Of a DNA stretch of 64,000 nt, positions 17,609 to 52,964 are shown piece by piece; position 1 is the stretch's first letter; the number at the start of each line of letters is the position of its first letter. The stretch covers positions 1 through 64,000 of the forward strand of contig CAMAXN010000011.1 of assembly GCA_945862245.1 (NCBI GenBank), in the 5' to 3' direction. Under the pieces are notes generated by a model, which was not told the origin of the DNA, did no database searches, and was given only the letters and a program-made list of their open reading frames with translations. Source of the stretch: Prosthecobacter debontii (GTDB lineage Bacteria; Verrucomicrobiota; Verrucomicrobiia; Verrucomicrobiales; Akkermansiaceae). Made by a program: the position numbers and the translations under genes.

Positions 17609-17683
17609 TGCTAGGAAGTTGCTTTCTGCGGGAGCTCCTGAAAGAGCCATTGGGCCGAACCGGAGGGCGGGGAAAAGGGGGTT
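17609..17683 (-). repeat. Element copy A (GCAAATTCCTAGCA family)
   Basis: On the minus strand it runs from AACCCCCTTTTCCCC to GCAACTTCCTAGCA. The middle (CCGGTTCGGCCCAATGG, CTCTTTCAGGAGCTCC) is shared with copies B and D. The DUF2961 gene fragment runs into it. Confidence 0.85.
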
Positions 17684-17693
17684 GCTTGGAAAA

Positions 17694-17894
17694 TTAACCC
17701 GGTTTATCCGGGGCGACTTTGGTCCGGTCGTAACTGCTGGCCTGCTTGCAGGTGAATTCCGGCTGCGGCCAGCGGGCGATGGACTCGACGTCCAGCATTT
17801 CCTGCAACAAGGAGTCGAGCGAGACGGGGGCCGCGGCGCTGAACGCCAGCGAAGCGAGCAGGAAGGCGGCGACGAGGGATGGAATGCGGTTCAT
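17694..17894 (-). pseudogene. N-terminal fragment of a DUF2961 protein, cut at element A
   Basis: Sixty-six codons: a signal peptide (MNRIPSLVAAFLLASLAFSA) followed by LDSLLQEMLDVESIARWPQP and YTCKQ-like TCKQASSYDRTKVAPDKPG, the start of DUF2961 (GH172-like) proteins. In the family a Trp-Phe follows PDKPG; here the Trp codon is TAA and element A begins about 10 bases on, so the remaining several hundred residues are missing. It lies 29 bp behind the GH127 gene on the same strand, so it was probably the next gene of an arabinan-use operon. Confidence 0.75.
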
Positions 17895-17923
17895 GAGATT
17901 CGAGGTTCGAACTCCGAATTTGA

Positions 17924-19846
17924 TTACTGCGCCGGTGCCTGCGCCGTGTAGTCGGCGGCCGTCATCGTCTTCCAGTAAATCGTGTAACGCTGGTGGTGCA
18001 GGAACGCGAGCGGACTGAGCGTGACATCCTGCGGCTTGGCCACCCCGGTGGTCCGGAAGCGCAGACCTTCGCCCGGTTCGCGCTTGAGCCAGGTGGCAGG
18101 ATCAGCGGCCGCATCCACCAGAACCGGCACCGGCGGCGTTTTGGCATCGAGGTGGGCGACGTTGTTGCCGGTGACCAAGTTCGGGGGCATCCCTTCGGTG
18201 CCCAGTTCACCCGCCAGCACCAGCGGACCATACATCACCACGACCATGGACTTATCGTCGCGGGCCGGACGGAGATGCAGGCTCAGGGGAAACTGCACTT
18301 TGATCGTGTCGCCATCCTTCCAGGTGCGAGTCAGGGTCAGGTAGCTCGATGGCTTGGCATCGACGGCCTGCTTCTCGCCGTTGACGGTGATTTTCGGTGC
18401 CTTGGCGGCCCAGTAGGGAACGCGGATTTTGACCGACAACTTCTGCGCTTGCTTGGTGCCGATCTTGAGGGTTGTGGTGTCCTTGACGGGGAACTCCGTT
18501 TCCTGGCGGACAGTGAGACCCTTCTCCTGCCAGTTGAGTTCCGAGGGGATGAAAAGGTTCACCCACAAGTTCTCGGCGTCGCGGCTGTAGATCGTGTCGG
18601 CGTACTTCGAGTGGTTCTCCATGCCGGTGCCCACGCAGCACCACATGGCGTCCTCAGGCGAGCTGTAGATTTTGAAATGTCCCGGCTTCATCGAATTGAA
18701 ATAGGTATAGCCGCCGCTTTTCGGATCCTGCGAACTCAGAATCGTGTTATACAGGCCGCGCTCGTAGTAATCCATGTAGCGGGCATCCGGCTGCCAGCCG
18801 AAGAGTTGGCGCGTAAGCTTCAGCGTGTTGTAAACCACGCACGTCTCGCTGGCATTGGTAGCCAGTTGCTTCGATTCCTGGCCTGCCGCGATGTAGCGCT
18901 CGCGCACGTCCATGCCTCCCGGTGCAAAGGTCCGGCTGTCCACCATGCTGTCCCAGAGAAAGTTGGCGATGGTGGCATCCCGCTGTTGGCCGTCCAATTC
19001 ATACAGGCGCGCCGCGCCCAGGATTTTTGGAAGGTTGGTGTTGACGTGCTTGTCGGTCAGGATGTCCTGCTTTGCGGCTAGGGGATCGGTGATGGCCTTG
19101 TGGTCAAAGCGCCGGGCGAGGGTCAGGTAATCCTTCTTGCCGGTGAGCGCGTAAAGTTCCGACAGCGACTCCACCATGCCGCCGAATTCGCAAGCCAGCA
19201 TCATCTGGAACTGTTCCTCGGTCAGGTTGTCGGTGCCCTTTTTCGCCCAGTCGGCAAACTTCGTGACGACCTCGAGCGCCTGCTTGTTGCCGGTGAGGAC
19301 ATGGGCATTGATCAGGCCGGCATAGACCTTGTGCATGACATACCACGGCACATAGCCGCCGCACATACCCCAGGCATCGGCCTTGATGTCGCCGGAAAAC
19401 GCCATCTTCCAAACCTCCAACCGGACCGGCCCGGCGTAACCGTCGCCGTGCTTCTCCTGCACGCGGGCGATCTCGCTCACCATGTAGTCCGCGCGCTTTT
19501 TCATCTCGGCATCGCCGGTGCTGGCATACATCAGCGCGAGGGCGCTCAAATAGTGTCCGGCCTCATGACCCACGCAGTCTTTCTTCGCCCAGCCGCCGTA
19601 TCGTTCCCCCTTGGTCGGCAGGCCGGCGTATTGGTGAAACGGCCAGAGCATCCGATCCGGCTCCACCTTCAGCAAGTAGGCCTTGTTGATCTCCATCGCC
19701 TTCTTGAACGGACCGTCCAGCAGACGCACCTGATTCAAGGCAAATGGTTTGACCTTGATGGGAACCACCGGCGCGATGGGCTCCGCGTGGAGTGGGTGGC
19801 CCAAAAGGGCGGTGAGCAGGATGGTCAGGAGGGGTTTCGGTTTCAT
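17924..19846 (-). CDS. GH127 beta-L-arabinofuranosidase-type glycoside hydrolase
   Basis: A 640-aa secreted enzyme (signal peptide MKPKPLLTILLTALLGHPLHA). It matches glycoside hydrolase family 127 (formerly DUF1680) along its length: GHEAGHYLSALALMYASTGD, WGMCGGYVPWYVMHKVYAGL and the Cys/Glu zinc-cysteine active site, seen as E334-T-C336 and C-C near 401-402 (WCCVGTGMENHSKY). The family removes beta-L-arabinofuranose from plant glycans. The gene begins 29 bp downstream (minus sense) of element B. No Shine-Dalgarno is obvious. Confidence 0.92.
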   Translation of the reverse strand: MKPKPLLTILLTALLGHPLHAEPIAPVVPIKVKPFALNQVRLLDGPFKKAMEINKAYLLKVEPDRMLWPFHQYAGLPTKGERYGGWAKKDCVGHEAGHYLSALALMYASTGDAEMKKRADYMVSEIARVQEKHGDGYAGPVRLEVWKMAFSGDIKADAWGMCGGYVPWYVMHKVYAGLINAHVLTGNKQALEVVTKFADWAKKGTDNLTEEQFQMMLACEFGGMVESLSELYALTGKKDYLTLARRFDHKAITDPLAAKQDILTDKHVNTNLPKILGAARLYELDGQQRDATIANFLWDSMVDSRTFAPGGMDVRERYIAAGQESKQLATNASETCVVYNTLKLTRQLFGWQPDARYMDYYERGLYNTILSSQDPKSGGYTYFNSMKPGHFKIYSSPEDAMWCCVGTGMENHSKYADTIYSRDAENLWVNLFIPSELNWQEKGLTVRQETEFPVKDTTTLKIGTKQAQKLSVKIRVPYWAAKAPKITVNGEKQAVDAKPSSYLTLTRTWKDGDTIKVQFPLSLHLRPARDDKSMVVVMYGPLVLAGELGTEGMPPNLVTGNNVAHLDAKTPPVPVLVDAAADPATWLKREPGEGLRFRTTGVAKPQDVTLSPLAFLHHQRYTIYWKTMTAADYTAQAPAQ

Positions 19847-19874: not shown

Positions 19875-19950
19875 TGCTAGGAATTTGCTGGCTGCGGGAG
19901 GCTCCTAAAAGAGCCAATGGGTCGGACCGGAGGGCGGGGAAAAGGGGGTT
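19875..19950 (-). repeat. Element copy B
   Basis: Nearly identical to A and D. It contains a GGCTC-CTAAAA-GAGCC hairpin and ends GCAAATTCCTAGCA 29 bp before the GH127 start. On the plus strand its GGGGGTT end is directly continuous with uvrC coding sequence. Confidence 0.88.
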
Positions 19951-20318
19951 ATCTACGTGGGCAAGGCAAAAGACTTACGCAAGCGAATGTCCGGGTATTT
20001 CATGCCATCTCGAAAAATGCGTGCTGATATCAAAACCCGCGCGTTGATCGATGCTATCTGGGATTTTGAGTATCATCTTGTCCGCAACGAGCAGGAGTCG
20101 TTGTTGCTGGAGGGAAAACTCATCAAGGACTACCGACCCCGCTACAATGTTAGCTTTCGGGACGACAAGCGCTTTTATCTCGTGAAGATCAATCCGCACG
20201 ACCCTAGCCGCGGCTGGTGATGACGCGTTTGAAAAAGGACGACCATGCGCGCTACTTTGGACCCTTTGCCCATTCCAGCGCACTTCGGGCATCGGTCGAA
20301 TGGTTGAACCGGAAATTC
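19949..20318 (+). pseudogene. uvrC: uvrC fragment (GIY-YIG region), frameshifted and truncated at both ends
   Basis: Plus strand. VIYVGKAKDLRKRMSGYF, then RADIKTRALIDAIWDFEYHLVRNE, ESLLLEGKLIKDYRPRYNVS and DDKRFYLVKINPHDP are UvrC residues of the GIY-YIG nuclease region. The GIY half is cut away by element B. After DPS a one-base deletion shifts the frame; PRLVMTRLKKDDHARYFGPF and ALRASVEWLNRKF continue in the next frame to about 20318. UvrC similarity then stops and unrelated sequence leads to element C. The fragment cannot make a functional excinuclease. Confidence 0.88.
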
Positions 20319-20426
20319 GTAATTGTATGCCTGGCAGTTTATTTGGCAATTTGACCCGAAATACCTGACCCGAAATATCGCACTCATGAACCGCAGGACA
20401 GCCCATGCTTAGCGGATTTGCTCAAC

Positions 20427-20493
20427 TGCTAGGAAATTGCTTTCACTGCCCGTCGTCCCTCCCGCCGCCGGTGGGCGGGGGTTGGAGGGGGTT
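20427..20493 (-). repeat. Element copy C
   Basis: Both ends are conserved (TTAACCCCC start; GCAATTTCCTAGCA end on the minus strand). The middle is different from A/B/D and G+C-rich (GCCCACCGGCGGCGGGAGGG). Confidence 0.75.
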
Positions 20494-20562
20494 AATGGTC
20501 GGATTTCGCGGAGTGATCCTCGCTGATGGGCTGCGCACCCGGCAAACCGCGTTTGGTGCGGA

Positions 20563-20861
20563 TTAGCCTCCCCCGCCGGACGGCGCCTCGGTCACGCGCA
20601 GCTTGAAGAAGCCGATTCCGGGCGGGACCCCGGGATCGACCTCCAACTCCAGCACCGGCGCCTCGTCAGGATCGGTTCCCCAGGCGATGGTGGCCTCCGT
20701 GAGCGGATGGATGTCCCAGTTCCAACCACCGCCATCCCGACCGTCGGACCCCAGAATGTGGTAGCCGATCCCGTCGAGATGGTAACCGTCGGTCGCAAAC
20801 TGGCCGTCTGTCCAGCGAACGCGGGATCGATAAAACAGCCGCCCATCCTGGGCCCTGGCGC
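20563..20861 (-). pseudogene. C-terminal fragment of an unidentified protein, starting at element D
   Basis: The open frame enters directly from the CTAGCA end of element D with no start codon of its own. It reads ARAQDGRLFYRSRVRW, GYHLDGIGYHILGS, WNWDIHPLTEATIAWG and ends GIGFFKLRVTEAPSGGGG. The last strand (FFKLRVTE) resembles the C-terminal beta strand of PVC secreted proteins. No family can be named. About 100 residues are present, bounded by elements D and C. Confidence 0.55.
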
Positions 20862-20937
20862 TGCTAGGAATTTGCTTTTGGCGGGATGCTCCTGAAAGAG
20901 CCATTGGGTCGGACCGGAGGGCGGGGAAAAGGGGATT
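20862..20937 (-). repeat. Element copy D
   Basis: Close copy of A/B: CCCCTTTTCCCCGCCC, CCGGTCCGACCC, CTCTTTCAGGAGC, then AAAAGCAAATTCCTAGCA. The integrase fragment reads into it in frame and stops at the TAG of CCTAG. Confidence 0.88.
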
Positions 20938-21073
20938 TTCTCTGGCTACCTTCCCTCCAATAGAGGGAGAACATCGAGTAGCCGTCCTTGCGATTGATTG
21001 TGTAGATCCGGACTTTGGCCGGACCTGTTCCAACTTCCACGATGGCACTGCGTCGTTTGCGTTTCTGGGTCAT
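20864..21073 (-). pseudogene. Tyrosine-recombinase (integrase) N-terminal fragment fused to element D
   Basis: The ATG at 21073 starts MTQKRKRRSAIVEVGTGPAK, VRIYTINRKDGYSMFSLYWR and EGSQ, the arm-binding/SAM-like N-terminus of phage-type integrases common in Verrucomicrobiota. Similarity ends there; the frame continues through element D (PFPRPPVRPNGSF...PPKANS) to a TAG. The catalytic domain with the R-H-R-Y residues is absent. It lies about 120 bp behind the 3' end of tRNA-Ser, the classic place of an island integrase. Assignment to the family is by pattern, moderately sure. Confidence 0.6.
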
Positions 21074-22451: not shown

Positions 22452-22459
22452 AATTGTAA

Positions 22460-22527
22460 TGCTAGGTATTTTTTAGCCTTATCGGAGAATATATTAAAGA
22501 GGTGTTCTGGGAAGAAAAAAAGGGGCT
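22460..22527 (-). repeat. Element copy H, promoter-like type
   Basis: Minus strand: CCCCTTTTTTTCTTCCCA, then TTCCCA (22508-22513), 16 bp, TATTCT (22486-22491), and CCTAGCATTA at the end, directly before the SGNH gene start. Confidence 0.8.
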
Positions 22528-22642
22528 GTTTCATGATCGAACAGGGAGGGTTTCCACAGAGTTGTGTATTTGTCAGTAGCTTGATGTTCGACACAATGTT
22601 GAATACTCCTGGGTCGTCTGGCTTTGAGAGTGGGGCTTCTCC

Positions 22643-24082
22643 TCAGGCCAAAATGCCCTTGACTACTTCGCCGTGCACGTCGGTCAGGCGCATGTCGCGG
22701 CCGCTGTAGCGGTAGGTGAGCTTTTCGTGGTTCATGCCAAGCAGGTGCAGCATGGTCGCGTGCAGGTCGTGGATGCTCACGCGGTTTTCGATGGCTTTGT
22801 AGCCATACTCATCCGTCGCGCCATAAATCGTCCCGCCTTTCACACCACCGCCGGCCATCCACATGGTGAATCCAAAGGGATTGTGGTCGCGTCCGTTGTT
22901 GCCTTGGGCGAACGGGGTGCGCCCGAATTCGCCGCCCCATACGACGAGGGTGGATTCGAGGAGTCCGCGTGATTTTAGGTCCTTCAGCAGCCCGGCGATG
23001 CCCTGATCTACGAAGAGGGCGTTCATCTCATGTCCGGCTTTCAAATCGCCATGCTGATCCCAGCGATCGCCGCCGCCGGCCGGGCAGGTGAGCTCGATGA
23101 AGCGCACGCCGCGCTCGACGAGGCGGCGGGCGACTAGACACTGAGTGCTAAAGGTGCGGGTCTGCTCGGTTTTCGCGTTCAGTCCGTAGAGTTCCTTGGT
23201 GGCGGCGGTCTCTCCGGCGATGTCCATGAGGTCGGGCACCTCAAGTTGCATGCGGGCTGCGAGTTCGTAGTTGGCGATGGCGCTTTCGAGTGCGTCCACT
23301 TTGCCAAACCGGTCGAGCACACCGGCGTCGAGTTTTTGCAGGAGCGCGAGCTTGTTTTTTTGCAGGTCGGCGGCTGCCTCGGTCGGGGTGACGTTGGCGA
23401 CGGCCTGGCCGGACGGCTTGAAAATCGAGCCCTGGAAACTCGCGGGCAGGAAGCCGCTGTTGAAATTGTCCAGCCCGCCGGGCGGGGTGAGGCCGCCGTT
23501 GAGCACGACAAAGCCGGGCAGATTCTGGCTCTCGCTGCCGAGGCCATATCCGGCCCATGCGCCCATGCTCGGGCGCCCCTGCAGGCCGCTGCCGGTGTGA
23601 AGGAAATAGTTCGCATTGGTGTGCTCGGAGAAGTTGCTCGTCATCGAGCGGATGATCGCTAGGTCATCCACACATTGGGCGACGTAAGGAAACAGGCTGC
23701 TGACCGGGATACCGCTTTGCCCATACTGCTGGAATTGCCATGGCGAGCCGAGTGTTTTGCCGTTGCTGTTGAACTGCGTGGGCTCCATTTTCATCTTGAA
23801 TGGCTGGCCGTTGTCCTTTGTGAGCTGGGGCTTCGGGTCGAAGGTGTCCACCTGCGAGGGACCGCCGTCCATGTAGAGGAAAATGACGCTGGTTGCCTTG
23901 GCCGCGAAATGCGGGCTGCGCGGCAGCATCGGGCTGAGCGGAGCAGCGGAGGTGATTGTTTTGCCAAACGCCTTGTCGCCCATCAGTGCTAGGAGTGCGA
24001 GGCCGCCGAAGCCGTTGGCGCATTTAGACAACATTTCTCGCCGGTTCAGCGGCGCAGGTAGGAAGTGGTTACAATGAGACAT
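22643..24082 (-). CDS. DUF1501 family secreted protein (sulfatase-like fold)
   Basis: A 479-aa DUF1501 protein, an alkaline-phosphatase-superfamily relative of unknown reaction, typical of PVC bacteria. It has a twin-arginine-type N-terminus (NRREMLSKCANGFGGLALLALMG). Family blocks include VIFLYMDGGPSQVDTFDPKP, then GVRFIELT...WDQHGDL, VVWGGEFGRTPF and GRDHNPFGFTMWMAGGG. Its ATG overlaps the stop of the upstream PSD1 gene by one base (TAATG), the standard DUF1553-DUF1501 pairing, so the two work as one unit. Confidence 0.94.
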   Translation of the reverse strand: MSHCNHFLPAPLNRREMLSKCANGFGGLALLALMGDKAFGKTITSAAPLSPMLPRSPHFAAKATSVIFLYMDGGPSQVDTFDPKPQLTKDNGQPFKMKMEPTQFNSNGKTLGSPWQFQQYGQSGIPVSSLFPYVAQCVDDLAIIRSMTSNFSEHTNANYFLHTGSGLQGRPSMGAWAGYGLGSESQNLPGFVVLNGGLTPPGGLDNFNSGFLPASFQGSIFKPSGQAVANVTPTEAAADLQKNKLALLQKLDAGVLDRFGKVDALESAIANYELAARMQLEVPDLMDIAGETAATKELYGLNAKTEQTRTFSTQCLVARRLVERGVRFIELTCPAGGGDRWDQHGDLKAGHEMNALFVDQGIAGLLKDLKSRGLLESTLVVWGGEFGRTPFAQGNNGRDHNPFGFTMWMAGGGVKGGTIYGATDEYGYKAIENRVSIHDLHATMLHLLGMNHEKLTYRYSGRDMRLTDVHGEVVKGILA

Positions 24083-27000
24083 TAGTTGATGTAGATGAAT
24101 TCTTTGACGTTGATAAGAACATGGGCCAGATCTGCCCAGACGCGTTCGTCGGAAAGCGCCGCGTCTCCCTCGAGGCCGTGCGCCTTACCTTGCTGGTTGA
24201 GAAAAGCCGTGGACGATGCGATTTCCGCCGGAGACGGCGGGCGGCCAAACGCGGTGAGGTACATCTCGCGCAGCAGAGACTCGGGCGCGAGACCGGCATT
24301 GGGCGCGAGGCGCTTCGCCCACAGCTTGGACTGCTCGACGACGAACGGATCGTTCATTAACGTAAGCGCCTGCGCGGGAACGTTCGAGACGTTGCGGCGG
24401 CTGATGGAGCTGAACGGAATCGGCGTGTCGAAGACCAGCATCATGGGCGAGAGAAAATTGCGCCGCACGGAGATGTAGATGCTGCGGCGCCCATCGCCGT
24501 CTAGTGGACCGCTGCCCGGCCTACCGCGTCCCTCCATGAACGGCGTCAGATGCAGCGGCACTGAGTTACCAAACGCGGTCGGATTCAGCCGGCCGGAAAC
24601 GGCGAGGATCGAGTCGCGAATCGCCTCACCCTCGAGGCGGCGCAAGTTAGCGCGATGCAGGAGCAGGTTCTCGGGGTCGAGTTGCTCTGCTTGTGCGTTG
24701 GTGGGCCGGCTTGTCATCCGGTACGTCTGCGAGAGCATGATCTCACGGATGAGTTTTTTCCTGGACCAAGTGAGGTCGCGGGAAAAACGCGCCGCCAGAT
24801 GGTCGAGTAATTCCGGATGCGATGGCGCTTGGCCGAGCACGCCAAAGTTGTCCACTGTCGGCACAAGACCGCGGCCAAAGAGATGGTGCCACACGCGGTT
24901 AACTGCTACGCGAGTGGTGAACGGACTAGCCGGGTCGGTCATTTGCCGCGCGAGTTGCAGGCGGCCGCTACCGGAGCCGTAGTCGGGCTGTTGCCCGCTG
25001 GAGAGGGCTTCGAGGAAACGGCGCGGTATCGGTTCGCCGGGAAATTTGGGAGAACCGCGAGGGAGGAAGAATTCGCTCGTACCGTTGCCATCGAGCATTG
25101 CGGGGGCGGTTTTGGAGTTGGCTCTAATCTGGGCGATTTGCTCGTCTCGCTGCTGGGCGAGGGGCTGTATGGCTTGGTCGAATGCCTCCCGCGCGGGTGA
25201 GTTCGGCGCGCAGAACAGGTCGATGTTCATCGCCAGCCAGTCTGAGAGCGCGGCTTCCTCCGCATCAGGCTCGGCAGCTAGTTGGCTGCCTTTTAACTGC
25301 TCAAGTAGACTGAGGAACACGCCTTGCAGCGAGCTCGCGATTTTTTCTGGTGACTCCGCCCCGTCACCGAGCGCCGTCGCCAGCCGGCTGTCTGCCACTG
25401 GCTTAGTCTTGGCTGCCTTCGGATCGGTCTGCACCACCATGGCGACCGCGAATTCGCCCGGGCCAGCGGGCGTGAACTCCACGTGGGTGCGATGGCCGGG
25501 GTAGGTGCTCAAATTGTGCTCTACCCATTGCCACTGGTCCTGACTTCCCAAGTCCAGTGTCAATGAGCCGTGCAGCGGTCCGGCGATGATGAGATGCGAG
25601 TTCACCGCCGAGTACGCGCGCCCGTGCCCTTTTACCAGATACCAGAGCCGCCCGGTTTTCATAGTGAACTCGGGCGTGCGCAGCGTTCGCTCGCTGCGCT
25701 CCCATTTTGCGATCGGGCCGACGTCCTGCTCGGAACCGGTTACCTGCAATATCTTCCATGCGTCGTCCCACCACGCTCCGCCTTCCGAAATGAATCTAGG
25801 CAACGGCTGGGCCGCGCTCCCGCTGATCCGGAATTCTCCTGTCTGAGCGGGCCGCAGACCGAAAGAAAATCCGTCCTGATACCAGTGCTTCGCGGGAATC
25901 TGAGTGTAATCCACCACCACGTCCTCCGGGGCAAACACAGGCCGCTCTAGGCTCTTACGCCATGTTTCCAGCGACGCTGCGACCGGCTGCCCGTCGGCTC
26001 CAGCAGGCAGGACGGCAAATGCGTGCAGCGGATGCAGCGGATCGGCCTTGGCTTTGGCCAGTTCCTTGACCCAAAGGTCGGTGGTGTCTGCTGGAGCGGC
26101 GTTCGACTGGTTGCGCGCGGTCAGAAGTTGTGCGGCCATTTTCTCCACGCCCGGACGTACCGCCGCCGCGAATTTTGCCGGCAGTTCCAGCTGGCTCTGG
26201 GTGCGGATTTGGTCGAGTCGGGTGGCCACGCGCTTGTTGTGTTCAATCGACTCGAAGCGCACCTGACGGTAGCTGCTGCTGAGCACAAACCCCATCATGC
26301 TGTAGTAGTCTTTCTGCGAAATCGCATCGAACTTGTGATCATGGCAGCGCGCGCAGGCCACGGTCAGGCCGAGAAAGGTCTTCGTCATCGTGTCGAGGCG
26401 GTTGTCGAGGCGGTCACACTCGTCCTGGCGGATGTCCACCGGCGAATGAACTTCCTCGCCGAGGAACCAAAAGCCCGTGCCAAGCACGGACTCATTCGCG
26501 CCGTCCGCGGTCAGGCGTGGTGTAGGCATAAGATCGCCGGCCACATGCTCGGTCAGGAACTGGTCATATGGCACGTCGGCATTGAGCGCACGGATGACGT
26601 AGTCGCGATATTGGTACGCGTTCGGAATGTTGTGGTCGAACTCGTGTCCTCGTGACTCCCCATATCGCACCGAGTCGAGCCAGTGCCGCGCCCAGCGCTC
26701 ACCGAAATGCGGCGACGCGAGCAGATTGTCCACGACCTTCGCAAAAGCTTGTGGCGATGAATCGGCAAGAAACGCCTCGACGTCCGTGGGCTTTGGCGGC
26801 ATCCCAACCACGTCGAAATATGCGCGCCGCAATAGCGCGGTCTTTTCCGCCGGCGCGTTAGGCTTGAGCTTCCTCGCTTCCAGTCGGGCGAGGATAAAAC
26901 GGTCGATGTCCGATGCCGGCCAGCGGGTGTCGCTAACCGCCGGTGCTGTGACTGCGGCTGGCACTGGTGCCCATGCCCAATGCTCCTGCCGTCGCTTTTT

Positions 27001-27474
27001 GAGATCGAAGGTCTCTTTTGTCGGCCCGGGCTTGGTCCCCGCCGACGCCGGCCACACTGCACCCGCCTTCACCCATGCCGTGAGATCCGCGACTTCCTTG
27101 GCCGGGAGCCTGGTCTTGGGAGGCATCTTCAGATCCTCGTTCGTGTAATGAACTGCCGTGATCAGCAAACTTTTTTCTGGGTCGCCCGGCATCAGTGCGG
27201 GCCCGGTGTCCCCGCCTTTGAGTAAATCCTCGCGCGAGTCCATCAGCAGGCCACCCTTCACCTTTTCGCCTGTCACGCTGTGGCATTTGTAGCACCGCTC
27301 GACCAGCAGTGGGCGCACGCGTTTTTCAAAAAAATCGAGTTCCGCCTGTGCCGCGCTCAACCGACCCGCTTCAAGCAGGAAGCACAGACCTACTAGGATC
27401 GCACCGAGTGTTGCCACGGCCCGTCCAGTGGCTGGACGAGTTGCATTTTGTGGACTAAAAAGAGCAATCATCAT
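24082..27474 (-). CDS. PSCyt1-DUF1549-DUF1553 (PSD1-type) secreted protein
   Basis: About 1130 aa. After a signal anchor it carries a Planctomycete-type cytochrome c domain with CYKCH heme motif (FFEKRVRPLLVERCYKCHS), then DUF1549 (WPASDIDRFILARLE...RRAYFDVVGMPP, FGERWARHWLDSVRYGES, ARCHDHKFD with a second CxxCH), a concanavalin-like insert, and C-terminal DUF1553 (TRVAVNRVWHHLFGRGLVPT, RSIYISVRRNFLSPMMLVFD). The start chosen is the ATG at 27474; a TTG at 27489 is possible. The spacing of 32 bp behind the giant gene indicates an operon. The redox role is inferred from the hemes. Confidence 0.93.
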   Translation of the reverse strand: MMIALFSPQNATRPATGRAVATLGAILVGLCFLLEAGRLSAAQAELDFFEKRVRPLLVERCYKCHSVTGEKVKGGLLMDSREDLLKGGDTGPALMPGDPEKSLLITAVHYTNEDLKMPPKTRLPAKEVADLTAWVKAGAVWPASAGTKPGPTKETFDLKKRRQEHWAWAPVPAAVTAPAVSDTRWPASDIDRFILARLEARKLKPNAPAEKTALLRRAYFDVVGMPPKPTDVEAFLADSSPQAFAKVVDNLLASPHFGERWARHWLDSVRYGESRGHEFDHNIPNAYQYRDYVIRALNADVPYDQFLTEHVAGDLMPTPRLTADGANESVLGTGFWFLGEEVHSPVDIRQDECDRLDNRLDTMTKTFLGLTVACARCHDHKFDAISQKDYYSMMGFVLSSSYRQVRFESIEHNKRVATRLDQIRTQSQLELPAKFAAAVRPGVEKMAAQLLTARNQSNAAPADTTDLWVKELAKAKADPLHPLHAFAVLPAGADGQPVAASLETWRKSLERPVFAPEDVVVDYTQIPAKHWYQDGFSFGLRPAQTGEFRISGSAAQPLPRFISEGGAWWDDAWKILQVTGSEQDVGPIAKWERSERTLRTPEFTMKTGRLWYLVKGHGRAYSAVNSHLIIAGPLHGSLTLDLGSQDQWQWVEHNLSTYPGHRTHVEFTPAGPGEFAVAMVVQTDPKAAKTKPVADSRLATALGDGAESPEKIASSLQGVFLSLLEQLKGSQLAAEPDAEEAALSDWLAMNIDLFCAPNSPAREAFDQAIQPLAQQRDEQIAQIRANSKTAPAMLDGNGTSEFFLPRGSPKFPGEPIPRRFLEALSSGQQPDYGSGSGRLQLARQMTDPASPFTTRVAVNRVWHHLFGRGLVPTVDNFGVLGQAPSHPELLDHLAARFSRDLTWSRKKLIREIMLSQTYRMTSRPTNAQAEQLDPENLLLHRANLRRLEGEAIRDSILAVSGRLNPTAFGNSVPLHLTPFMEGRGRPGSGPLDGDGRRSIYISVRRNFLSPMMLVFDTPIPFSSISRRNVSNVPAQALTLMNDPFVVEQSKLWAKRLAPNAGLAPESLLREMYLTAFGRPPSPAEIASSTAFLNQQGKAHGLEGDAALSDERVWADLAHVLINVKEFIYIN

Positions 27475-27506
27475 ATCGTTGATATGCAAGTACGCTACTT
27501 TAGTTA

Positions 27507-33359: not shown

Positions 33360-33430
33360 TGCTAGGTTTTTGCATTTACATCTATAGTGAATAATACACT
33401 AGGTAGCTGGACTGGGAAGGGGAAAAAGGA
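33360..33430 (-). repeat. Element copy G, promoter-like type
   Basis: Minus strand: CCTTTTTCCCCTTCCCAG, TTCCCA (33413-33418), 16 bp, TATTAT (33391-33396), then GCAAAAACCTAGCATTA. It stands just upstream of the giant gene. Confidence 0.82.
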
Positions 33431-33513
33431 ATGTCTCACAGCCCGCTCTTAAATCAAATATCTCTGACGCGCTTCAGAGATAGCGCCTTAACAACCAGCG
33501 CGGACGGAAACTG

Positions 33514-35550: not shown

Positions 35551-35621
35551 TGCTAGGAATTTACTTTTTCATCGATGGTGTAAAATACTGCGGGGGTCGG
35601 TTTGGCAAGGGTAAAAGGGGT
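35551..35621 (-). repeat. Element copy F, overlapping the rbsC 3' end
   Basis: Minus strand: CCCCTTTTACCCTTGCCA, a TTGCCA-N15-TATTTT pair, ATGAAAAAG, then TAAATTCCTAGCA. The rbsC-like frame runs through it and stops at its TAG. The AspH gene starts 41 bp beyond. Confidence 0.75.
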
Positions 35622-36935
35622 CTGGCGAACCTTGTCGAGAAGCACGGCGCCGAGGATCACGAGACCGAGCACGACCTTCTGTGTGTAGCTCTCGACGTTG
35701 GTCAGGTTCATGCCGTTTTGAATCACGGCGATGGTGAACGCACCGATGAGCGTGCCGAGCATTTTCCCCTCGCCTCCGCTGAGACTCGTGCCGCCGACGA
35801 CGACGGCGGCAATGACGTAGAGTTCATACATGTTGCCATAAGTCGCGGAACCGCTCTTGAGCTGGGAGGCCATGATTACGCCGCCTAGACCCGCGAGCAG
35901 GGCGCTGGTGATGTAGGCAAACATGAGCACGCGCTTCACCGGTACGCCGGAGAGGCGGGCCGCTTCCCCATTGCCGCCCACAGCATAGAGATAGCGGCCC
36001 AGTTTCATCCGGGACATGAGCACATGCGCGAGGGCGTAAAGGATAAGCATGAGCACGACAGCATTCGGGAGGCTCAGCAGGTCCGCATCGCGACCAAGCC
36101 ACACGAAGGAATCAGGGATCTGGTAAATGGACTGACCTTTCGCCAATATGTAAGCCAACCCGCTGCCGACGAGCATCATGGCGAGCGTGACGATGAAAGG
36201 TGGTATGGCGAACCGCGTGATCATTGCTCCCGTGAAGGCTCCGATGATGCCGCAGAGTCCGATAGCCGCGAGGCTGGCGAGCAGCATTCCTCCCGCCGAG
36301 GCGGCTACCCCTCCAGCAAGATCGCGGATGAACCCCGCAGTAAGCACCGCCGACAGCGCCAGCAGGCTGCCCACAGAGAGATCAATCCCGCCCGTGATGA
36401 TGACCATCGTCATGCCGATGGCGATGATGGCGATGACGGCGATTTGGTTGGCGATGTTCAGCAGGTTCTCGGATTTCAGGAAATTGGGCCAGCGATAGCT
36501 GCGCGGCGCGATCACCCGCGGATCGCCAAGTGCCGGGAAGTCCGTCTTCAAGTCGGAGAACACGATCCATGCTCCGGTGACTTGTGTGCAGGCGATGGCG
36601 TCGATCCCGCCGCCGGCAGTATTGATTTTCACCAGCGCCTCGCGGGCGACTGGCGGTTGCCCTTTGGCGGTCGCGAGAACTTGAGCCCCCGAGGCGGCAA
36701 GGCTGCGCTCAAGGCTGGCGGCGAACTCGGCGTCGCCGGGCTGTTCACCGACGGCGATGAGCACGCGCGGTGCATTGCCGAACTGCTCAGTAATCGACCC
36801 GGCGACCTGCTTCGCGGCGGCTTCGCCCGTAGGCGACTGATCGCTGATCGTCACTACGCTGAAGAATCCGCACAGCAGCAGCAGCACAAAAATCATGCCG
36901 TAGTCGGAGAGAAATCTGTAGAATATCTGTTTCAT
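35553..36935 (-). CDS. rbsC: Sugar ABC transporter permease, RbsC type, with periplasmic insertion
   Basis: 460 aa. The core IAIGMTMVIITGGIDLSVGS, then FIVTLAMMLVGSGLAYI and GGTSLSGGEGKMLGT are classic RbsC/XylH-type permease sequence. Between TM1 (about 15-35) and TM2 lies an extra domain of about 115 residues (FGNAPRVLIAVGEQPGDAEF...), absent from E. coli RbsC and perhaps extracytoplasmic. The last 20 residues (RQTPFTLAKPTPAVFYTIDE and KVNS) come from element F, so the natural C-terminus may be altered. The start chosen is ATG 36935, 8 bp after the rbsA-like stop; a longer frame from 37004 overlaps rbsA. Confidence 0.9.
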   Translation of the reverse strand: MKQIFYRFLSDYGMIFVLLLLCGFFSVVTISDQSPTGEAAAKQVAGSITEQFGNAPRVLIAVGEQPGDAEFAASLERSLAASGAQVLATAKGQPPVAREALVKINTAGGGIDAIACTQVTGAWIVFSDLKTDFPALGDPRVIAPRSYRWPNFLKSENLLNIANQIAVIAIIAIGMTMVIITGGIDLSVGSLLALSAVLTAGFIRDLAGGVAASAGGMLLASLAAIGLCGIIGAFTGAMITRFAIPPFIVTLAMMLVGSGLAYILAKGQSIYQIPDSFVWLGRDADLLSLPNAVVLMLILYALAHVLMSRMKLGRYLYAVGGNGEAARLSGVPVKRVLMFAYITSALLAGLGGVIMASQLKSGSATYGNMYELYVIAAVVVGGTSLSGGEGKMLGTLIGAFTIAVIQNGMNLTNVESYTQKVVLGLVILGAVLLDKVRQTPFTLAKPTPAVFYTIDEKVNS

Positions 36936-41701: not shown

Positions 41702-41774
41702 ATCCTAGAAGCTTGTGGTCTCACATTACTTAAAATACAATAAACAGCTGGTTTGGGAAGGAGAAAAGAGGGTT
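41702..41774 (-). repeat. Element copy I, promoter-like type
   Basis: Minus strand: CCAACCCTCTTTTCTCC, TTCCCA (41754-41759), 16 bp, TATTTT (41732-41737), then GCTTCTAGGATT. About 190 bp upstream of the sugar ABC operon. Confidence 0.78.
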
Positions 41775-43656: not shown

Positions 43657-44988
43657 TTAGGTCAGCCCGTTCAGACGTCCAGATCCGTCCACGAAGCGCT
43701 CTTGCTCGACACCCATGGCTTGCAGTATGGTGACGTGGAGATTGCAGAGTGGGGTGGCATCGTTTTCGTAAACGAGGTGCTGGCCCTGCTTGATGCCGAG
43801 GCTGCGACCGCCAGCTAAGAGCGTGGGGAGCTTGCGCGTGGAGTGATTGCCGCCGCCATCTTCCAAGCCCGTGCCGTTATTCATGCCGCTGCCGTAGAGG
43901 ACGAGGGTGCGGTCGAGCATGGTGCAACCTTCTTCATTGATGGCTTGCAGGCCTTTAAGGAAATCTGCTAGGAGGTCGACTCCCCGTTTGTCCACTTTGG
44001 CGACATTTTCCAGGGTGCCCTTATTCCCTCCGTGGTGCTGAATGCCGTGCATGGTATCATTCACGCCCACTTCTATCCATTTGTAGGAATCGACCTCCAC
44101 CCCGGACATCAGCGTGATGATGCGTGTGGTGTCAGTGCGCAGTGAGAGGAGCATTAAATCATACATGACTTTGAGAAACTCGGAGCGGTTTTTGAATTCA
44201 AATTGAAGCTGGCTGGCGTCAATTTTAGGTTTGGGTTGATCGAGCCACTTCTGGTTTCGATCGATTTGAAGTTCCACGTCGCGAACGGAATCGAGGTATT
44301 GGTCGAGCCGGGCACGATCCTCATGACTGAGTTTGCGATTTAGGGCCTTAGACTCTCTGATGACGTTGTCGAGGAGGCTGCGCTGGCGTTGATAGCGCGC
44401 ATTTTCGGACGCGAGGTCTTCAGGGGTGTCGGGGACGAAGAGGCGATGGAACAATGCCCGCGGATTGTTCATGGCGGCCAAGGGTAGGCCGCGTGAGTTG
44501 AAGGAGAGGGTATTGCTGCGTCCAGGAACGCCGGCACCGGCTTCAGTGGAGAGTTGCAGGGAGGGCCAGCGGGTTTGCCGGCCGAGTTGGGCGGCTACCA
44601 CTTGATCCATGGAATGCGATACGTTAGGCGAGGCAAAGTCCACCAGGATGCGGTCGTTGTCCTGCACTCCGGTGAGCCATCTTCCGGCTGCGGCATGGCC
44701 GACATTAGCCGACATGCGGGGATGACAGAGTCCGGTGAGGACAGAAAGTTCTTTGCGCACCGGCTCGAGCGACTGGAGAGTGGGCGAGAGGATGTAGTCG
44801 CTGCCGGTTTCCTTGGGATACCAATCGCTGTTGCGGACGCCATGGGGGGCATAAATGCAAACCATTCTTGCTGGCGACTTTTTCGGTTTCTCTGCGGCAG
44901 GCAGACGCGGCGCGAGGCTTTCCAGAGCGGGCAGGGCAATGCAGGCACCGGCTCCACGGAGAATATTGCGGCGGGTAAAGTTTTTCAT
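43657..44988 (-). CDS. DUF1552 family secreted protein
   Basis: A 443-aa Tat-exported protein (TRRNILRGAGACIALPALES). Family blocks: RMVCIYAPHGVRNSDWYPKE, GVQDNDRILVDFASPNVSHS, LSHEDRARLDQYLDSVRDVE and VLYGSGMNNGTGLEDGG. DUF1552 proteins are DUF1501-like and their reaction is unknown. The ATG overlaps the stop of the DUF1592-type gene by 4 bases (ATGA), the usual pairing, so the two are translated together. Confidence 0.93.
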   Translation of the reverse strand: MKNFTRRNILRGAGACIALPALESLAPRLPAAEKPKKSPARMVCIYAPHGVRNSDWYPKETGSDYILSPTLQSLEPVRKELSVLTGLCHPRMSANVGHAAAGRWLTGVQDNDRILVDFASPNVSHSMDQVVAAQLGRQTRWPSLQLSTEAGAGVPGRSNTLSFNSRGLPLAAMNNPRALFHRLFVPDTPEDLASENARYQRQRSLLDNVIRESKALNRKLSHEDRARLDQYLDSVRDVELQIDRNQKWLDQPKPKIDASQLQFEFKNRSEFLKVMYDLMLLSLRTDTTRIITLMSGVEVDSYKWIEVGVNDTMHGIQHHGGNKGTLENVAKVDKRGVDLLADFLKGLQAINEEGCTMLDRTLVLYGSGMNNGTGLEDGGGNHSTRKLPTLLAGGRSLGIKQGQHLVYENDATPLCNLHVTILQAMGVEQERFVDGSGRLNGLT

Positions 44989-47900
44989 GGTTGGGTGGGA
45001 TTTTCTAAAAATCGATCGCTGAGTACGATTTGTTCAATTAATGTGCGTAAAGTGGGTGTTTGTTCCAGCTTATTGACTATTGTTTTGACGGTGGTTCTAT
45101 CGCCAAATGATACGGTATTACCGGTGGCATAAATGAGCATTTTTTCTGTGAGCGATTTTAGCAGTGCAGTCTTATTTTGCATCAGGTGGCTCTTGAACTC
45201 GCTGACATTCTTGAAGCTACGTCCATCGGAAAAAGTGCCGGTGGCATCAACGGGTGCCCATGCCAAGGCCTTGGTCTGATCTCCGGCATTTAGCAGGAGC
45301 GGGGCCTTGCGGTTGCTTGTGCTGTCAGCAGCGACCTTGAAACGTTGGCTGGCTGCTGCGGTCTCTAGGCAACCAGTCAGAAAGTAGCGCGCTTCGTATT
45401 CGCCGGGCTCTTTGGGCGCGTTCAGAGTGATGATCCCGTTGAAAAGGCCATTGGGAAGCTGCTTCCGGGTGTCGGTGGTGAATTTCCAGCTATCCAGCTT
45501 CTCGAACTGCTTGTTGTCCGTCTCAGCAGCGGGTAGGACGGCGATCTTGTCGCTACCTTCACCGGTTCCGTTGGCAAAATGGATGGTGATAACCTCGCCG
45601 GGAGCAAATACCTGATTTTCCTGCTTATTGCGTTCCACTTCGACCAGTTCCTGACTGCGCCAGGCGCCAATGGCATCGAAACTCTCTAATGCAAAACCTG
45701 GTGGATCAATTTTCTCGTGGCAGTTGATGCAGGAGGGATCGTTGCGGTGTTGTTCCAGCCGCTCACGCAAGGTAGCGACGGGCTTGGTAACCTTGACGTT
45801 TTCGATCCCGGGCACATCCGGTGGTGGCGGCTTGGGTGGGTCTGCCAAGATTTGCTCTAGCACGAAGGCGCCCCGGGCGATGGGGAGAGTTCGTAGTCCA
45901 TTGGCGGTGGCCGTGAGCACTCCGGCTTGAGTCATGACGCCGCCGCGGTGATGGTTGGCGTCGATTGGCACTTTGCGGAAGTTGTTTCCTTTCACGCCTT
46001 CGATTCCATAGTGTTTCGCGATGCGTTCATTGAGCATCAGGAAATCGGAATTTATGAATTGATAGATGCTGAGGTCGTTCTGGAGGATTTCGCGAAAGAA
46101 AGCATTTGCCTCACCGACCATGGCCTCGCGCAGCGCGAGGTCGTAGGATGGATAGAGGGTTCCATCGACCGTGAGTTTGGAGAGCTTGTCGAGGCCTAAC
46201 CACTGGCTGGTGAAGTGCTCAATGAGGGTCTCTGCTTTTGGGTCTTTCAGCATACGATGGATTTCCGCAATAATCGTCGCGGGCTTCATCAACTCTCCGC
46301 TTTGGGCGAGTTCCATGAGACGATCATCGGGCATGGTGCGCCAGAGGAAGTAGGAAAGGCGGGAGGCCATTTCCCAAGCTTTCTGTTCCGGCACGGCATC
46401 GGGAGTCGCCCCGTAATAGAGGAACGATGGTGAGGAGAGAATGGAGGCCAGCGGCATGCGCAGGGCTTTTTTTAGAGCGAGGCCGGTAGCACGCTGTTTT
46501 TGATAAATTTCAACCATGCGGGCAACTTCGTCCTCGTTGACTGGACGGCGATAGGCACGCTTCATGAAGGAAGAGAGAACGCGTTTTGCGTAAGCGTCGT
46601 CTTGTTCGTCGGCTAACTTTTCAGGAAAGACTCGCTTATGCCAGGCTGGCGGCCACTCCGGATGGTAGGGGCCTTCGACCTCGATGTTGGAGATGTGCAG
46701 GCCGAAAGGCACTGGATTACCGTCCCCGCCCTTTTCATGCTTGAGCACATAGTAGAGTTTCAGTCCCCAGAACCGGTTGCCACTGGTTTCAACATACCAG
46801 GGGATGTCGTCGCGGTAGAGGTCGATAGCAACGGTGTGGGACTGGTTTAGATCTAGAAGCCGCTCTTGCCACAGAGTTCCCTCCGGATCACGGAAGATTT
46901 GGAGTTTTGGAGGCAGTCCTTTCCAGTCACTGGGGCCAAAGGTGGAGAGGTGGATGCGGATGCGATATGTTCCTTCTTCATAGGCGAACCACTTGAAGCC
47001 GAAAACATTGTCCTCATCACGGATAATGACCCCTTCGTCAGTTGCACTGGCACCGTAGCAGCGGATGTCCCAGGAGCCTTCATATTCAACCGGTGGATCT
47101 TGCGCGAGATCGACCATTCGATAGGGCGTTGCCCCGTTGGGGATTTCTGAATTCGCCTGTACGTTACCCTGGAGGCGTCCTGGCTTGATTCTCTCCTGCG
47201 GCTTTCCGCGGTGCCCGTCGTGCCAGGCACCGTCGTCCTTAAGTAGGGGCCTCTTTTCTTGGGTGGCATTGACAATGCGCCAGTGCTGACGCTGAGGAGG
47301 CTGATCCGGGATGTTGATGACCTTGTCGAGAAGGCGGTCAGTGGCCTTGACAATATTCTCAACGTGAAAGGGAGAAACAACTAGGGCTTCACCGATGTTG
47401 TCGAAACCGTGCGATGATGGATCAGGAGAAAGCAGATCGGTTGGATCATAGGGGTGGCCAATGAGGTCTCGCATGGTGTTGCTATATTCCAAGCGTGTGA
47501 ACCGGCGGAGATCGGTGCGCCTCTCATTGGCTCGGAAAGCCGTTTCCGCCTCATCAATCCCGCTTGTCAGCCACACGACAGTTTCACGAAGTGCCTCCTC
47601 CGATGGACGTTTCTTCTTTTTTGGGGGCATTTCACCCGTCTCGATTCTCTTCAGAACATTAGCCCATTGCGGACCGCTTTTTAAGTCGATGGGATTCTTA
47701 CTTAGTTCCTCTAAATTGAGATCGCCTTTCTGCCTATCCGAGTCATGACAGTCGACACAGTGCTCTTCAAAAAAGGGTTGAAGTTTGCTATTGGGAGCAG
47801 CGGTGGAATCGATGGACGCAGGAGTATTCTGCCCGCGAATTGCCGCCGGGAAGATAAAGCAAGTCAGAAAAATGCTAATGCTGGAAATTTGCGTTTTCAA
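44985..47900 (-). CDS. PSCyt-DUF1587-DUF1592-DUF1588-DUF1585 type secreted protein, possible TTG start in element J
   Basis: About 971 aa. An N-terminal cytochrome c-like motif (HCVDCHDSDRQKGDLNLEEL) is followed by DUF1587 (RRFTRLEYSNTMRDLIGHPY), DUF1595/1592 (YRRPVNEDEVARMVEIYQKQ, WEMASRLSYFLWRTMPDDRL), DUF1588 (HRGGVMTQAGVLTATANGLR) with CINCHEK, and C-terminal DUF1585. Upstream frame runs to 48053 through element J. A TTG at 47900 gives an acceptable signal peptide (KTQISSISIFLTCFIFPAAI), so I start there; part of the signal peptide is then encoded by element J. Confidence 0.88.
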   Translation of the reverse strand: MKTQISSISIFLTCFIFPAAIRGQNTPASIDSTAAPNSKLQPFFEEHCVDCHDSDRQKGDLNLEELSKNPIDLKSGPQWANVLKRIETGEMPPKKKKRPSEEALRETVVWLTSGIDEAETAFRANERRTDLRRFTRLEYSNTMRDLIGHPYDPTDLLSPDPSSHGFDNIGEALVVSPFHVENIVKATDRLLDKVINIPDQPPQRQHWRIVNATQEKRPLLKDDGAWHDGHRGKPQERIKPGRLQGNVQANSEIPNGATPYRMVDLAQDPPVEYEGSWDIRCYGASATDEGVIIRDEDNVFGFKWFAYEEGTYRIRIHLSTFGPSDWKGLPPKLQIFRDPEGTLWQERLLDLNQSHTVAIDLYRDDIPWYVETSGNRFWGLKLYYVLKHEKGGDGNPVPFGLHISNIEVEGPYHPEWPPAWHKRVFPEKLADEQDDAYAKRVLSSFMKRAYRRPVNEDEVARMVEIYQKQRATGLALKKALRMPLASILSSPSFLYYGATPDAVPEQKAWEMASRLSYFLWRTMPDDRLMELAQSGELMKPATIIAEIHRMLKDPKAETLIEHFTSQWLGLDKLSKLTVDGTLYPSYDLALREAMVGEANAFFREILQNDLSIYQFINSDFLMLNERIAKHYGIEGVKGNNFRKVPIDANHHRGGVMTQAGVLTATANGLRTLPIARGAFVLEQILADPPKPPPPDVPGIENVKVTKPVATLRERLEQHRNDPSCINCHEKIDPPGFALESFDAIGAWRSQELVEVERNKQENQVFAPGEVITIHFANGTGEGSDKIAVLPAAETDNKQFEKLDSWKFTTDTRKQLPNGLFNGIITLNAPKEPGEYEARYFLTGCLETAAASQRFKVAADSTSNRKAPLLLNAGDQTKALAWAPVDATGTFSDGRSFKNVSEFKSHLMQNKTALLKSLTEKMLIYATGNTVSFGDRTTVKTIVNKLEQTPTLRTLIEQIVLSDRFLENPTQP

Positions 47901-47948
47901 TCTTGATACAGAATACGGTCTAGAGCCGGTCTGGGAAGGGAAAAAGAT
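47879..47948 (-). repeat. Element copy J, promoter-like type
   Basis: Minus strand: TCTTTTTCCCTTCCCAG, TTCCCA (47932-47937), 16 bp, TATTCT (47910-47915), then TTGAAAACGCAAATTTCCAGCATTA, given here by position 47876-47900. It overlaps the start of the DUF1592-type gene. Confidence 0.75.
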
Positions 47949-47985
47949 GATTATTCGTGCTCGCAAACTCTTATCTGCCATTTTC

Positions 47986-51163: not shown

Positions 51164-51239
51164 TACTAGAAGTTTGCTTTTGGCGTGAAAGGCCGGTGAG
51201 AAATTTCATGAGAGGCACAGTGGGGGATAGAAGAGGGTT
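51164..51239 (-). repeat. Element copy L
   Basis: Minus strand: CAACCCTCTTCTATCCCC to AAAAGCAAACTTCTAGTA. The middle differs from both main types. It lies 22 bp behind the subtilase stop. Confidence 0.72.
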
Positions 51240-51507: not shown

Positions 51508-51677
51508 GGTGGAAATGCCTGATCGCCTCCGGCGCGAATAAACTCGACGTGCCACCACCGAAGAACATCGAGTCTATGCGCCGCCCTGCCGCGAGCTGTG
51601 CGCGGGTCAAGCACCAGTGCCGAGGTGTAGTCGTTCACTGACCTGGGTATATGGATATAGAGCGACAGCGGCAGCAT
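51508..51677 (-). pseudogene. hemW/HemN-like radical-SAM gene remnant
   Basis: LPLSLYIHIP is the HemW N-terminus, but the CxxxCxxC cluster that should follow is deleted (it goes on SVNDYTSALVLDPRTA). In the next frame, QLAAGRRIDSMFFGGGTSSL and FAPEAIRHFH match the following HemW block. So the fragment has a deletion and a frameshift and keeps only about 55 codons. The GGGTSSLF text fits proteobacterial-type HemW; it lies beside the porin-like gene and may have come with it. Confidence 0.6.
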
Positions 51678-51730
51678 GCCGACAGGGTAGCGCGCTTCTC
51701 CGCGTCGAGGTGGATCAGTGGATCAGTGGA

Positions 51731-52912
51731 TCAGAACTTGAACGTGCCGCCGATGTAGAAGCTGTTGTTACTCGCATCCTTACTGGCGATATTCGAGTCG
51801 CGGTCGCCGCTCTCGTAGCCAATTTCGGCCGTGAACATCTCGCCGAAGTTCTTGGTCACCTGCACACCCCAGGTTTTGTTGTCGTCCTGGCGGTTAGGCT
51901 CGAGGTTCTTGAAGTCGACGAAATCGAACTTGTAGCCGATGCCCGCAGTCATTTCCCACGGCAGTTTGCGAGTGTAGGTGACTTCCCAGCCCCAGGCATC
52001 GGTGCTGCGCTTGTAATCGGTCGAGTTTTCGACGTTCGGCGCAAACTTGACCTTGAAGATGTCGTCGTCGGTTGCCTTGAAGCCGGCGCCGAGGGCAAGC
52101 GTGTCGACGCGTGCGTCCGGCGAGGTCGACTCGGTGATGTCTTTGTCCTGGTAGTTGTAGATGGCGGTCAGGCCTAAGCGCTTGGAGACTTCGTAGCTAT
52201 ATCCCAGCGACACTACGAAGGTGGTCGAGAAACTGTCGTTGTCCTTGTCCAACGCGACGTACGACAGCGACGGCTTGAAGCCGTGCTTGCTGCCCTCAGG
52301 CGAGAAATCGAAGCCGGTGGTTAGCGCCCAGTTGAACTTGTCCAGGTCATCGCGCCGGTTGTGGGTGTCGGTGGCAAAGCGGATGCCGTTGTTCCACGAT
52401 GTGGTACCATTTTCGAACGCGTAATTGTGGCCGAGACCGACCTTGGTGGTGAAGCGGCTTTCCTTGTCTATTACGTTGTCTACGTTCGGGTCGATGAGGT
52501 CATCGATGCCGTCACCGTCCTCGTCGATCGCGTCGTCTTGCTCGATCTCGTCCTCGGACGGATCGACATCGATGAGTTGGTCGAAGCCATCCTGCTCGTT
52601 TTCCTCCTCGTTTTCCTGCTCGTTTTCCTCCTCCGAGTCGTCGGCGTTGGTCTCGTCCTCGTCCTCGTCCTCAATTCCGAAATCGGAAAGCTCGGCGTAG
52701 TCGAAGCTATTACCCGACGACGGTGCGACCGATACGTTGTCGTTGGTGCGGTACTGCCCCTCGATGCTGCCCTTGAACTTGTGGCCGGCCTTGGGCTTTG
52801 CGCCCTTAGCCTCAGCGTTGGTGGAAATCCCAATGCCTAGAACGGCGACCGCGATCGCTAGATAGATTGCACTGCGTTGCAAATAAATAATACTAGGTAA
52901 TTGTTTTTTCAT
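51731..52912 (-). CDS. Outer-membrane beta-barrel protein with long acidic segment
   Basis: 393 aa with signal peptide (AIYLAIAVAVLGIGISTNAEA). Residues about 75-150 are extremely acidic (DEDEDETNADDSEEENEQEN, then DEDGDGIDDLIDPN, which looks like a Ca-binding thrombospondin-3-type repeat). The rest alternates as beta strands and ends FYIGGTFKF with a terminal Phe, the mark of an outer-membrane barrel. It resembles proteobacterial barrels more than verrucomicrobial ones, so transfer is likely. The ATG and first codons lie inside element M. Confidence 0.72.
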   Translation of the reverse strand: MKKQLPSIIYLQRSAIYLAIAVAVLGIGISTNAEAKGAKPKAGHKFKGSIEGQYRTNDNVSVAPSSGNSFDYAELSDFGIEDEDEDETNADDSEEENEQENEEENEQDGFDQLIDVDPSEDEIEQDDAIDEDGDGIDDLIDPNVDNVIDKESRFTTKVGLGHNYAFENGTTSWNNGIRFATDTHNRRDDLDKFNWALTTGFDFSPEGSKHGFKPSLSYVALDKDNDSFSTTFVVSLGYSYEVSKRLGLTAIYNYQDKDITESTSPDARVDTLALGAGFKATDDDIFKVKFAPNVENSTDYKRSTDAWGWEVTYTRKLPWEMTAGIGYKFDFVDFKNLEPNRQDDNKTWGVQVTKNFGEMFTAEIGYESGDRDSNIASKDASNNSFYIGGTFKF

Positions 52913-52964
52913 TTCCTAATCAAAATGTGTTGAGAAGCTAGATAGTACAAGGGAAAATAGGGTT
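52891..52964 (-). repeat. Element copy M
   Basis: Minus strand: ATAACCCTATTTTCCCTTG at one end; ATGAAAAAACAATTACCTAG and TATTA at the other. It contains the start codon and first codons of the barrel gene. A further degenerate stretch related to the middle of type A/B/D follows at 52974-53011. Confidence 0.72.

Follow-up and report, generated by a model that had tools for sequence, protein, structure and literature searches.

Seventy-five-bp repeats in a Prosthecobacter debontii gene mosaic match IS91-family 3′ ends and likely built it by one-ended transposition of adjacent DNA

We analysed a stretch of 64,000 nucleotides of Prosthecobacter debontii DNA (contig CAMAXN010000011.1, hereafter the window), in which a mosaic of operons and broken gene pieces between positions 17,609 and 52,964 is punctuated by a repeat of about 75 bp with conserved ends and variable middles. 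As judged by sequence comparison with the host genome, relatives and public contigs, the repeat is the 3′ terminus of an IS91-family transposon, present as a non-autonomous end, and its different middles are those of different insertion sequence (IS) lineages. We consider it likely that these IS91-family 3′ ends built the mosaic by one-ended transposition, carrying adjacent DNA with them.

A scan for both ends retrieved ten full copies in the window (A, B, C, D, G, F, I, J, L and M), every one on the minus strand. Copy H is absent from its output, its right end having 3 mismatches; the stretch 22460-22530 is 0.73 identical to IS 3′ ends, whereas shuffled sequence reaches 0.56 at most, and by this similarity H is a decayed eleventh copy. 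Against IS 3′ ends, each of the eleven scores above the best of 100 shuffles, copies L and M by a modest difference (0.67 vs 0.59 and 0.64 vs 0.55, respectively). An element of single orientation with conserved ends and variable middles, as described in an earlier note on this DNA, is therefore confirmed. Matches to one end alone, on the minus strand with at most 3 mismatches, numbered 11 where 3.7 were expected, and those to the other end 14 where 5.5 were expected. Among the three half copies proposed in that note only the one at 34517 (1 mismatch) is convincing, whereas those at 48001 and 48578 carry 3 mismatches each, the level expected by chance for that motif. The flanking core of the window holds one 3-mismatch match of each end and no more; the statement that the element is missing from the core thus stands for the window, but not genome-wide, where other arrays and isolated copies exist. 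The copies are listed below (types I and II refer to the middles; G, C and L handles denote genomes, contigs and loci).

Copy A, 17609..17683, minus strand: 75-bp IS91-type 3′ end, type I; 0.86 identity to the IS 3′ end in L176
Copy B, 19875..19950, minus strand: type I; cuts the uvrC-like fragment on its left; 0.85 to L176
Copy C, 20427..20493, minus strand: separate lineage, best match the IS of G049; 0.77 to L267
Copy D, 20862..20937, minus strand: type I; cuts an integrase-like gene start (named by inspection); 0.88 to L176
Copy H, 22460..22530, minus strand: decayed, type II-like; 8 bp lie between its end and the start codon (ATG) of a GDSL-lipase open reading frame (ORF); 0.73 to L265/L142
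Copy G, 33360..33433, minus strand: type II; 0.76 to L265/L142
Right end alone, 34517..34530, minus strand: 13/14 bases; joined to an IS3-type orfA remnant
Copy F, 35551..35623, minus strand: type II; an ABC permease ORF (PF02653) runs into it; 0.77 to L138/L157
Copy I, 41703..41774, minus strand: type II, decayed; 0.70 to L265/L142
Copy J, 47879..47952, minus strand: type II; 0.76 to L265/L142
Copy L, 51164..51239, minus strand: decayed; 0.67 to L213, shuffled maximum 0.59
Copy M, 52891..52964, minus strand: decayed; 3′ of uvrB (PF17757/PF12344); 0.64 to L138/L157, shuffled maximum 0.55

A minus-strand copy likewise lies 3′ of uvrB in the relative G004.

Some copies have long left flanks in common, all finishing in the same 75 bp. 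The longest form, present in relatives, is an IS of ~1.9-2.0 kb whose homology begins within ~100 bp before the ATG and which consists of an ORF of ~515 aa, then ~190-212 bp, a stretch ...CCCCTTTTCCCCCGC, and the 75 bp at the 3′ terminus. The ORF matches the transposase profile PF04986 (5.3e-24, 85.7 bits, cut-off 20.9), a zinc-binding N-terminal domain (PF14319, 1.8e-18) and the NCBIfam model NF033538 transpos_IS91 (180.7 and 181.4 bits, cut-off 125). An HUH motif (HPHLHVL) and paired tyrosines (RYYGxYSNK), which we take to be marks of the IS91 family, were read by inspection in the translations. The best plasmid matches are ~26-27% identical, several of them annotated as ISPps1-type IS91. 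Eight full-length IS copies carry the 75 bp (L183, L176, L213, L084, L138, L157, L141 and L142); in L142 and its G015 counterpart the match is split over two frames, which leaves seven full-length copies readable in a single frame.

A left flank of 100 bp or more was available for 205 copies. In 34 of these the sequence runs on into the IS body, by 38 to about 1957 bp, and eight reach full length; this count leaves out one second element just past a full copy, and matches extending no further than ~120 bp are weak. The 5′ truncation points differ among the 34, and the remainder of the 205 have no IS on their left. An identity of at least 85% to an IS 3′ end was found for 101 of 168 solo copies tested, and a solo on C75 of the host matches the IS end of G004 at all but 1 of 75 positions. 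The middles track the IS lineages, type I resembling L176/L183, type II L138/L157/L142 and window copy C the IS of G049, and both conserved ends are common to all lineages. Separately, in five relatives (G039:C23, G044:C35, G018:C25, G052:C53 and G055:C25) a second IS91-type transposase and a tyrosine-recombinase match were seen on one contig, no more than a few kb apart.

The search of the whole genome and of relatives, already envisaged in the earlier note, brought up further arrays. In the host metagenome-assembled genome (MAG; G000, 83 contigs), the element consensus gave 50 BLAST pieces (40 of 56 candidate places scored), and the fetched stretches, window included, hold 50 non-redundant copies, both in arrays (C25, C9, C34, C37 and C13) and isolated. 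Across the six fetched stretches with at least 3 copies, window included, 39 of 41 copies agree in orientation with their array. A somewhat stricter scan of the host, relatives and public contigs collected 207 distinct copies, and 194 of these measure 73-78 bp. Public genome contigs supplied 112 copies, relatives 44, host loci outside the window 38, the window itself 7 and viral contigs 6; identical copies were removed, and some of the public contigs belong to the relatives, there listed by name. The two ends co-occur, with 288 full matches, a number that includes duplicates from overlapping loci and a lenient partner criterion, against 9 left-only and 5 right-only matches; a half-site crossover model was rejected on this rarity of one-ended sites. 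The reversed-motif control gave 39 left and 0 right matches, compared with 281 and 303 for the real motifs. The type II consensus was matched in 16 of 59 searched genomes, host included, and the type I consensus in all ten element-bearing genomes picked for a second search. The exact pattern occurs in 84 stretches of GTDB species genomes; 78 of 80 listed titles are Verrucomicrobiota, mostly Akkermansiaceae or other Verrucomicrobiales, and the other two are contigs of 5-6.5 kb naming other groups. Gene orientation around the copies is mildly biased (95 to 65 on the right side, 113 to 41 on the left).

A few type I copies in L040, L041 and L043 measure 105-108 bp, with an extra ~31 bp inside (around CTTCGCCAAGGCTACGACAGGCAGGCCGG). 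Four IMG/VR viral contigs (L219-L222) carry the element pattern, and L221 also has a transposase fragment. The possibility of a coding tag was rejected: one type II frame reads NPLFPFPDRLSSVFSALGEKANS and then a stop, and upstream frames are no more in register than others (longest sense frame 29, 26 and 21 of 76).

Unrelated pieces of genes, many of them broken, meet at the solo 75-bp copies. Left junctions sharply cut genes, as seen with the uvrC-like, icd, integrase-like and PQQ-like fragments, and right ends do so too, for example at the lpxD-like fragment; the element indeed borders modules and broken gene pieces, as had been claimed. Of 186 copies, 134 have the tetranucleotide CAAC at their left junction, and the left 'AAC' probably belongs to a retained CAAC. 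Since CAAC also lies at the same point inside most full-length IS copies (GAAC in G049), a 75-bp product could arise by early termination. By inspection, 3 of 9 relatives have TGAC or CGAC at the uvrC-like junction, as do 5 of 7 at the icd junction. Near the lpxD-like and some other right junctions, CCTAG, CCTA or TAG occurs in the native sequence (a handful, among the matches listed), and these could be pseudo-termination sites.

Comparison of C13 of the host with its G004 counterpart showed the same right flank over 1.1 kb, with a different element type and an unrelated left flank. Both steps, the cutting of genes at left junctions and the change of the left side next to a conserved right side, are thus directly visible. 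With 48 IS-body-sharing pairs set aside, four pairs of copies have only the right flank in common and none only a non-IS left flank. Some pieces look foreign: the host's second copy of the uvrC-like sequence (G000:C4:36973) shares only 70% identity with the window fragment, the icd fragment is 87% identical to DNA of G008 and the lpxD-like fragment 81-82% identical to DNA of G033; a DNA search of the host found no second copy of the icd or lpxD-like fragment.

Passages of a study of IS801 (PMC3189936) report that the right end is where IS91/IS801 transposition begins, that it terminates at the left end or at other sites bearing a similar tetranucleotide, that DNA immediately upstream is at times recruited, and that the transposase is said to act in trans. 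Read with this behaviour, the mosaic would represent accumulated one-ended rolling-circle events. A transposase, once host-encoded or supplied in trans, would start at the right end (ori); a stop at the internal CAAC would yield 75-bp solos, and a stop at another tetranucleotide would yield truncated IS copies or DNA carried from the left side. If later insertions kept landing at or close to the right ends of existing copies, arrays of captured fragments in one orientation would result. Left-hand capture by read-through fits the gene-cutting left junctions, the C13/G004 pair, the four-to-none count of flank pairs and the foreign-looking pieces; foreign origin, the direction of capture and the growth of arrays are inferred.

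Several observations weigh against this proposal. The host genome has no PF04986 match and retains only a 58-aa transposase remnant (88% identical), so movement there would be past or in trans. A transposase type or piece was found in 8 of 16 element-positive genomes, host remnant included, vs 7 of 43 others, a loose agreement within a tally limited by query types and fetched loci. The left end of the solos is no more similar to the IS 5′ end than shuffled sequences are. The copy scan demanded both ends and would miss 3′-truncated copies, and no empty site turned up in the fetched loci. The direction of capture rests on four pairs, of which one (C13/G004) has a type switch and one starts with re-copied element sequence. 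Finally, period-4 tails follow 17 of 203 right ends, compared with 1.25 in shuffled sequence and 3 of 207 left flanks, and right ends are re-copied, features for which the proposal does not account. On C37 (L041, about 16590-16632), a right end is followed by a long GTCA/GGCA tandem tail, and TTCA or GTCA tails occur after other copies.

Plain miniature IS91 insertions, rearranged into a mosaic by homologous recombination between copies and without one-ended capture, offer a rather unlikely alternative, yet the one with most in its favour: 75-bp same-strand repeats are plentiful, and most genomic IS801 fragments are argued, in passages of the same study (PMC3189936), to be products of reorganisation. 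Recombination alone would not create the first sharp 75-bp joins to gene interiors (uvrC-like, icd), and the C13-G004 pair with its type switch fits only if the crossover lay in the right end. The tails and re-copied right ends could instead suggest retrotransposition, with slippage at the right end during target-primed reverse transcription of the 3′ end, but we give this almost no credence, as neither G000 nor G005 has a PF00078 match and the parent element codes for an IS91 transposase. That a short repeat misled the assembler, one of the readings in the earlier note, is very improbable too. The host sequence is an 83-contig MAG; nevertheless, such a chimera is disfavoured because the single-contig genome G004 (4,389,840 bases) carries both elements and a full IS copy. 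Moreover, the copies differ in sequence and the right side of the C13 junction is the same in G000 and G004.

Arrays, a single orientation, content changing on one side and an IntI-type integrase in the genome might also speak for a new integron-like cassette system, the element being the site of a site-specific recombinase. We regard this as highly unlikely. The IntI locus has, by inspection, its own canonical-looking attC; single strands of the element fold poorly (z -1.4 for one of five, 0.5 to 0.8 for the rest); G022 and G033 are element-rich without an IntI match over the cut-off; and the IS bodies contradict it. Identity with attC, which the note had already doubted, was rejected on the ends, which differ by inspection from RYYYAAC/GTTRRRY, and on the poor fold. 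A new recombination-site family and a mobile promoter repeat, its two other suggestions, give way to the terminus of an IS91-family transposon. The IntI locus itself (L054, G000:C19, about 7640-9700) looks like an ordinary integron. Its IntI-type integrase matches PF00589 and TIGR02249, a PEMT/ICMT-like methyltransferase ORF occupies the single cassette, and the attC, canonical in appearance, ends in GTTGGGC.

ISCR elements, which are IS91-like, are known for one-ended capture of neighbouring genes. The transposase found here matches the NCBIfam model of ISCR clade Ia weakly (91.5 and 101 bits), far below the cut-off of 925, and membership was rejected by that model. Integron cassette arrays share with our arrays the one-orientation fragments separated by conserved-end repeats; unlike them, the element has no attC fold or core sites and no IntI link, and is a transposon terminus instead of a recombination site, so that the integron-like look would be functional at most. 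Helitrons are eukaryotic rolling-circle elements whose non-autonomous forms are common. In Helitrons, read-through past a weak terminator captures gene fragments (PMC4778049), a process resembling the one proposed here, whereas the present element is bacterial and its ORF has Y2_Tnp and Zn_Tnp_IS91 only, without a helicase. IS801 of Pseudomonas syringae is also alike, with its rolling-circle transposase family, upstream capture and right-end fragments (229, 360 and 679 nt) starting at a tetranucleotide, as given in passages of PMC3189936. The miniature here is only 75 bp, outnumbers IS-bearing copies in the fetched set and forms one-orientation arrays between gene fragments, which sets it apart, and its tetranucleotide is mostly CAAC, against GAAC, GGAC, CAAG and CGAC in those passages.

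The IS91 family itself is known; the element is new in size, number and array habit. No description of it was found in the open-licence literature searched (IS91 with Akkermansiaceae, Verrucomicrobia, miniature, one-ended or array). Most of what is known of one-ended IS91 transposition comes from single events and resistance-gene neighbourhoods. Tentatively, and with somewhat more doubt than confidence, we propose that the 75-bp IS91-type end may serve Akkermansiaceae and their kin as a gene-collecting device. Rolling-circle one-ended transposition, in place of a site-specific integrase, would build integron-like arrays of accessory genes; new units would be added where older copies have their right ends, and DNA of neighbouring species would be sampled. 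Several genomes holding many 75-bp derivatives in fragment-rich arrays would then be a natural system for studying gene shuffling by rolling-circle transposons in bacteria, a question that Helitrons raise in eukaryotes.

The genes and gene pieces between the window copies are the following.

17696..17893 (approximate, counted by eye), minus strand: start of a gene (66 codons) that breaks off just left of copy A; resembles DUF2961 by inspection, without a Pfam match
17924..19846, minus strand: GH127 gene between B and A (PF07944, 4.7e-118)
19951..20319, plus strand: uvrC-like gene fragment, named by inspection; homology to relatives ends at copy B
20494..20861, minus strand: ORF without a start between D and C
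20938..21073, minus strand: integrase-like N-terminus, named by inspection, no Pfam match; adjoins tRNA-Ser; similar DNA in relatives
22643..33323, minus strand: three-gene module between G and H (DUF1501; PSCyt/PSD1; deacetylase/DUF7133 giant)
34531..34804, minus strand: IS3-type orfA remnant (PF01527), 89-95% identical to DNA in four relatives
43657..47878, minus strand: DUF1552/DUF1592-type module after copy J

The names icd (PF03971, 1.2e-22), IS3 orfA (PF01527) and uvrB are backed by profiles. Those of the uvrC-like, lpxD-like, DUF2961-like, integrase-like and PQQ-like fragments come from inspection alone; in a profile search the uvrC-like fragment gave a weak GIY-YIG match (18.7 bits, below the cut-off of 22.6) and the lpxD-like one a hexapeptide match, and the other three gave none.

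At 20938-21280 the window has a tRNA-Ser(GCT) followed by the truncated integrase-like start, perhaps a remnant of an integrative element, and a similar stretch lies on C25 (L038, 12597-12770). An Rfam scan at gathering thresholds returned tRNA as the sole match. At both L041 (3850-4034) and L040 (16010-16150) the element is followed by the same signal-peptide-like coding stretch, and the G008 homologue of the signal-peptide-like gene on C37 has a different 5′ part.

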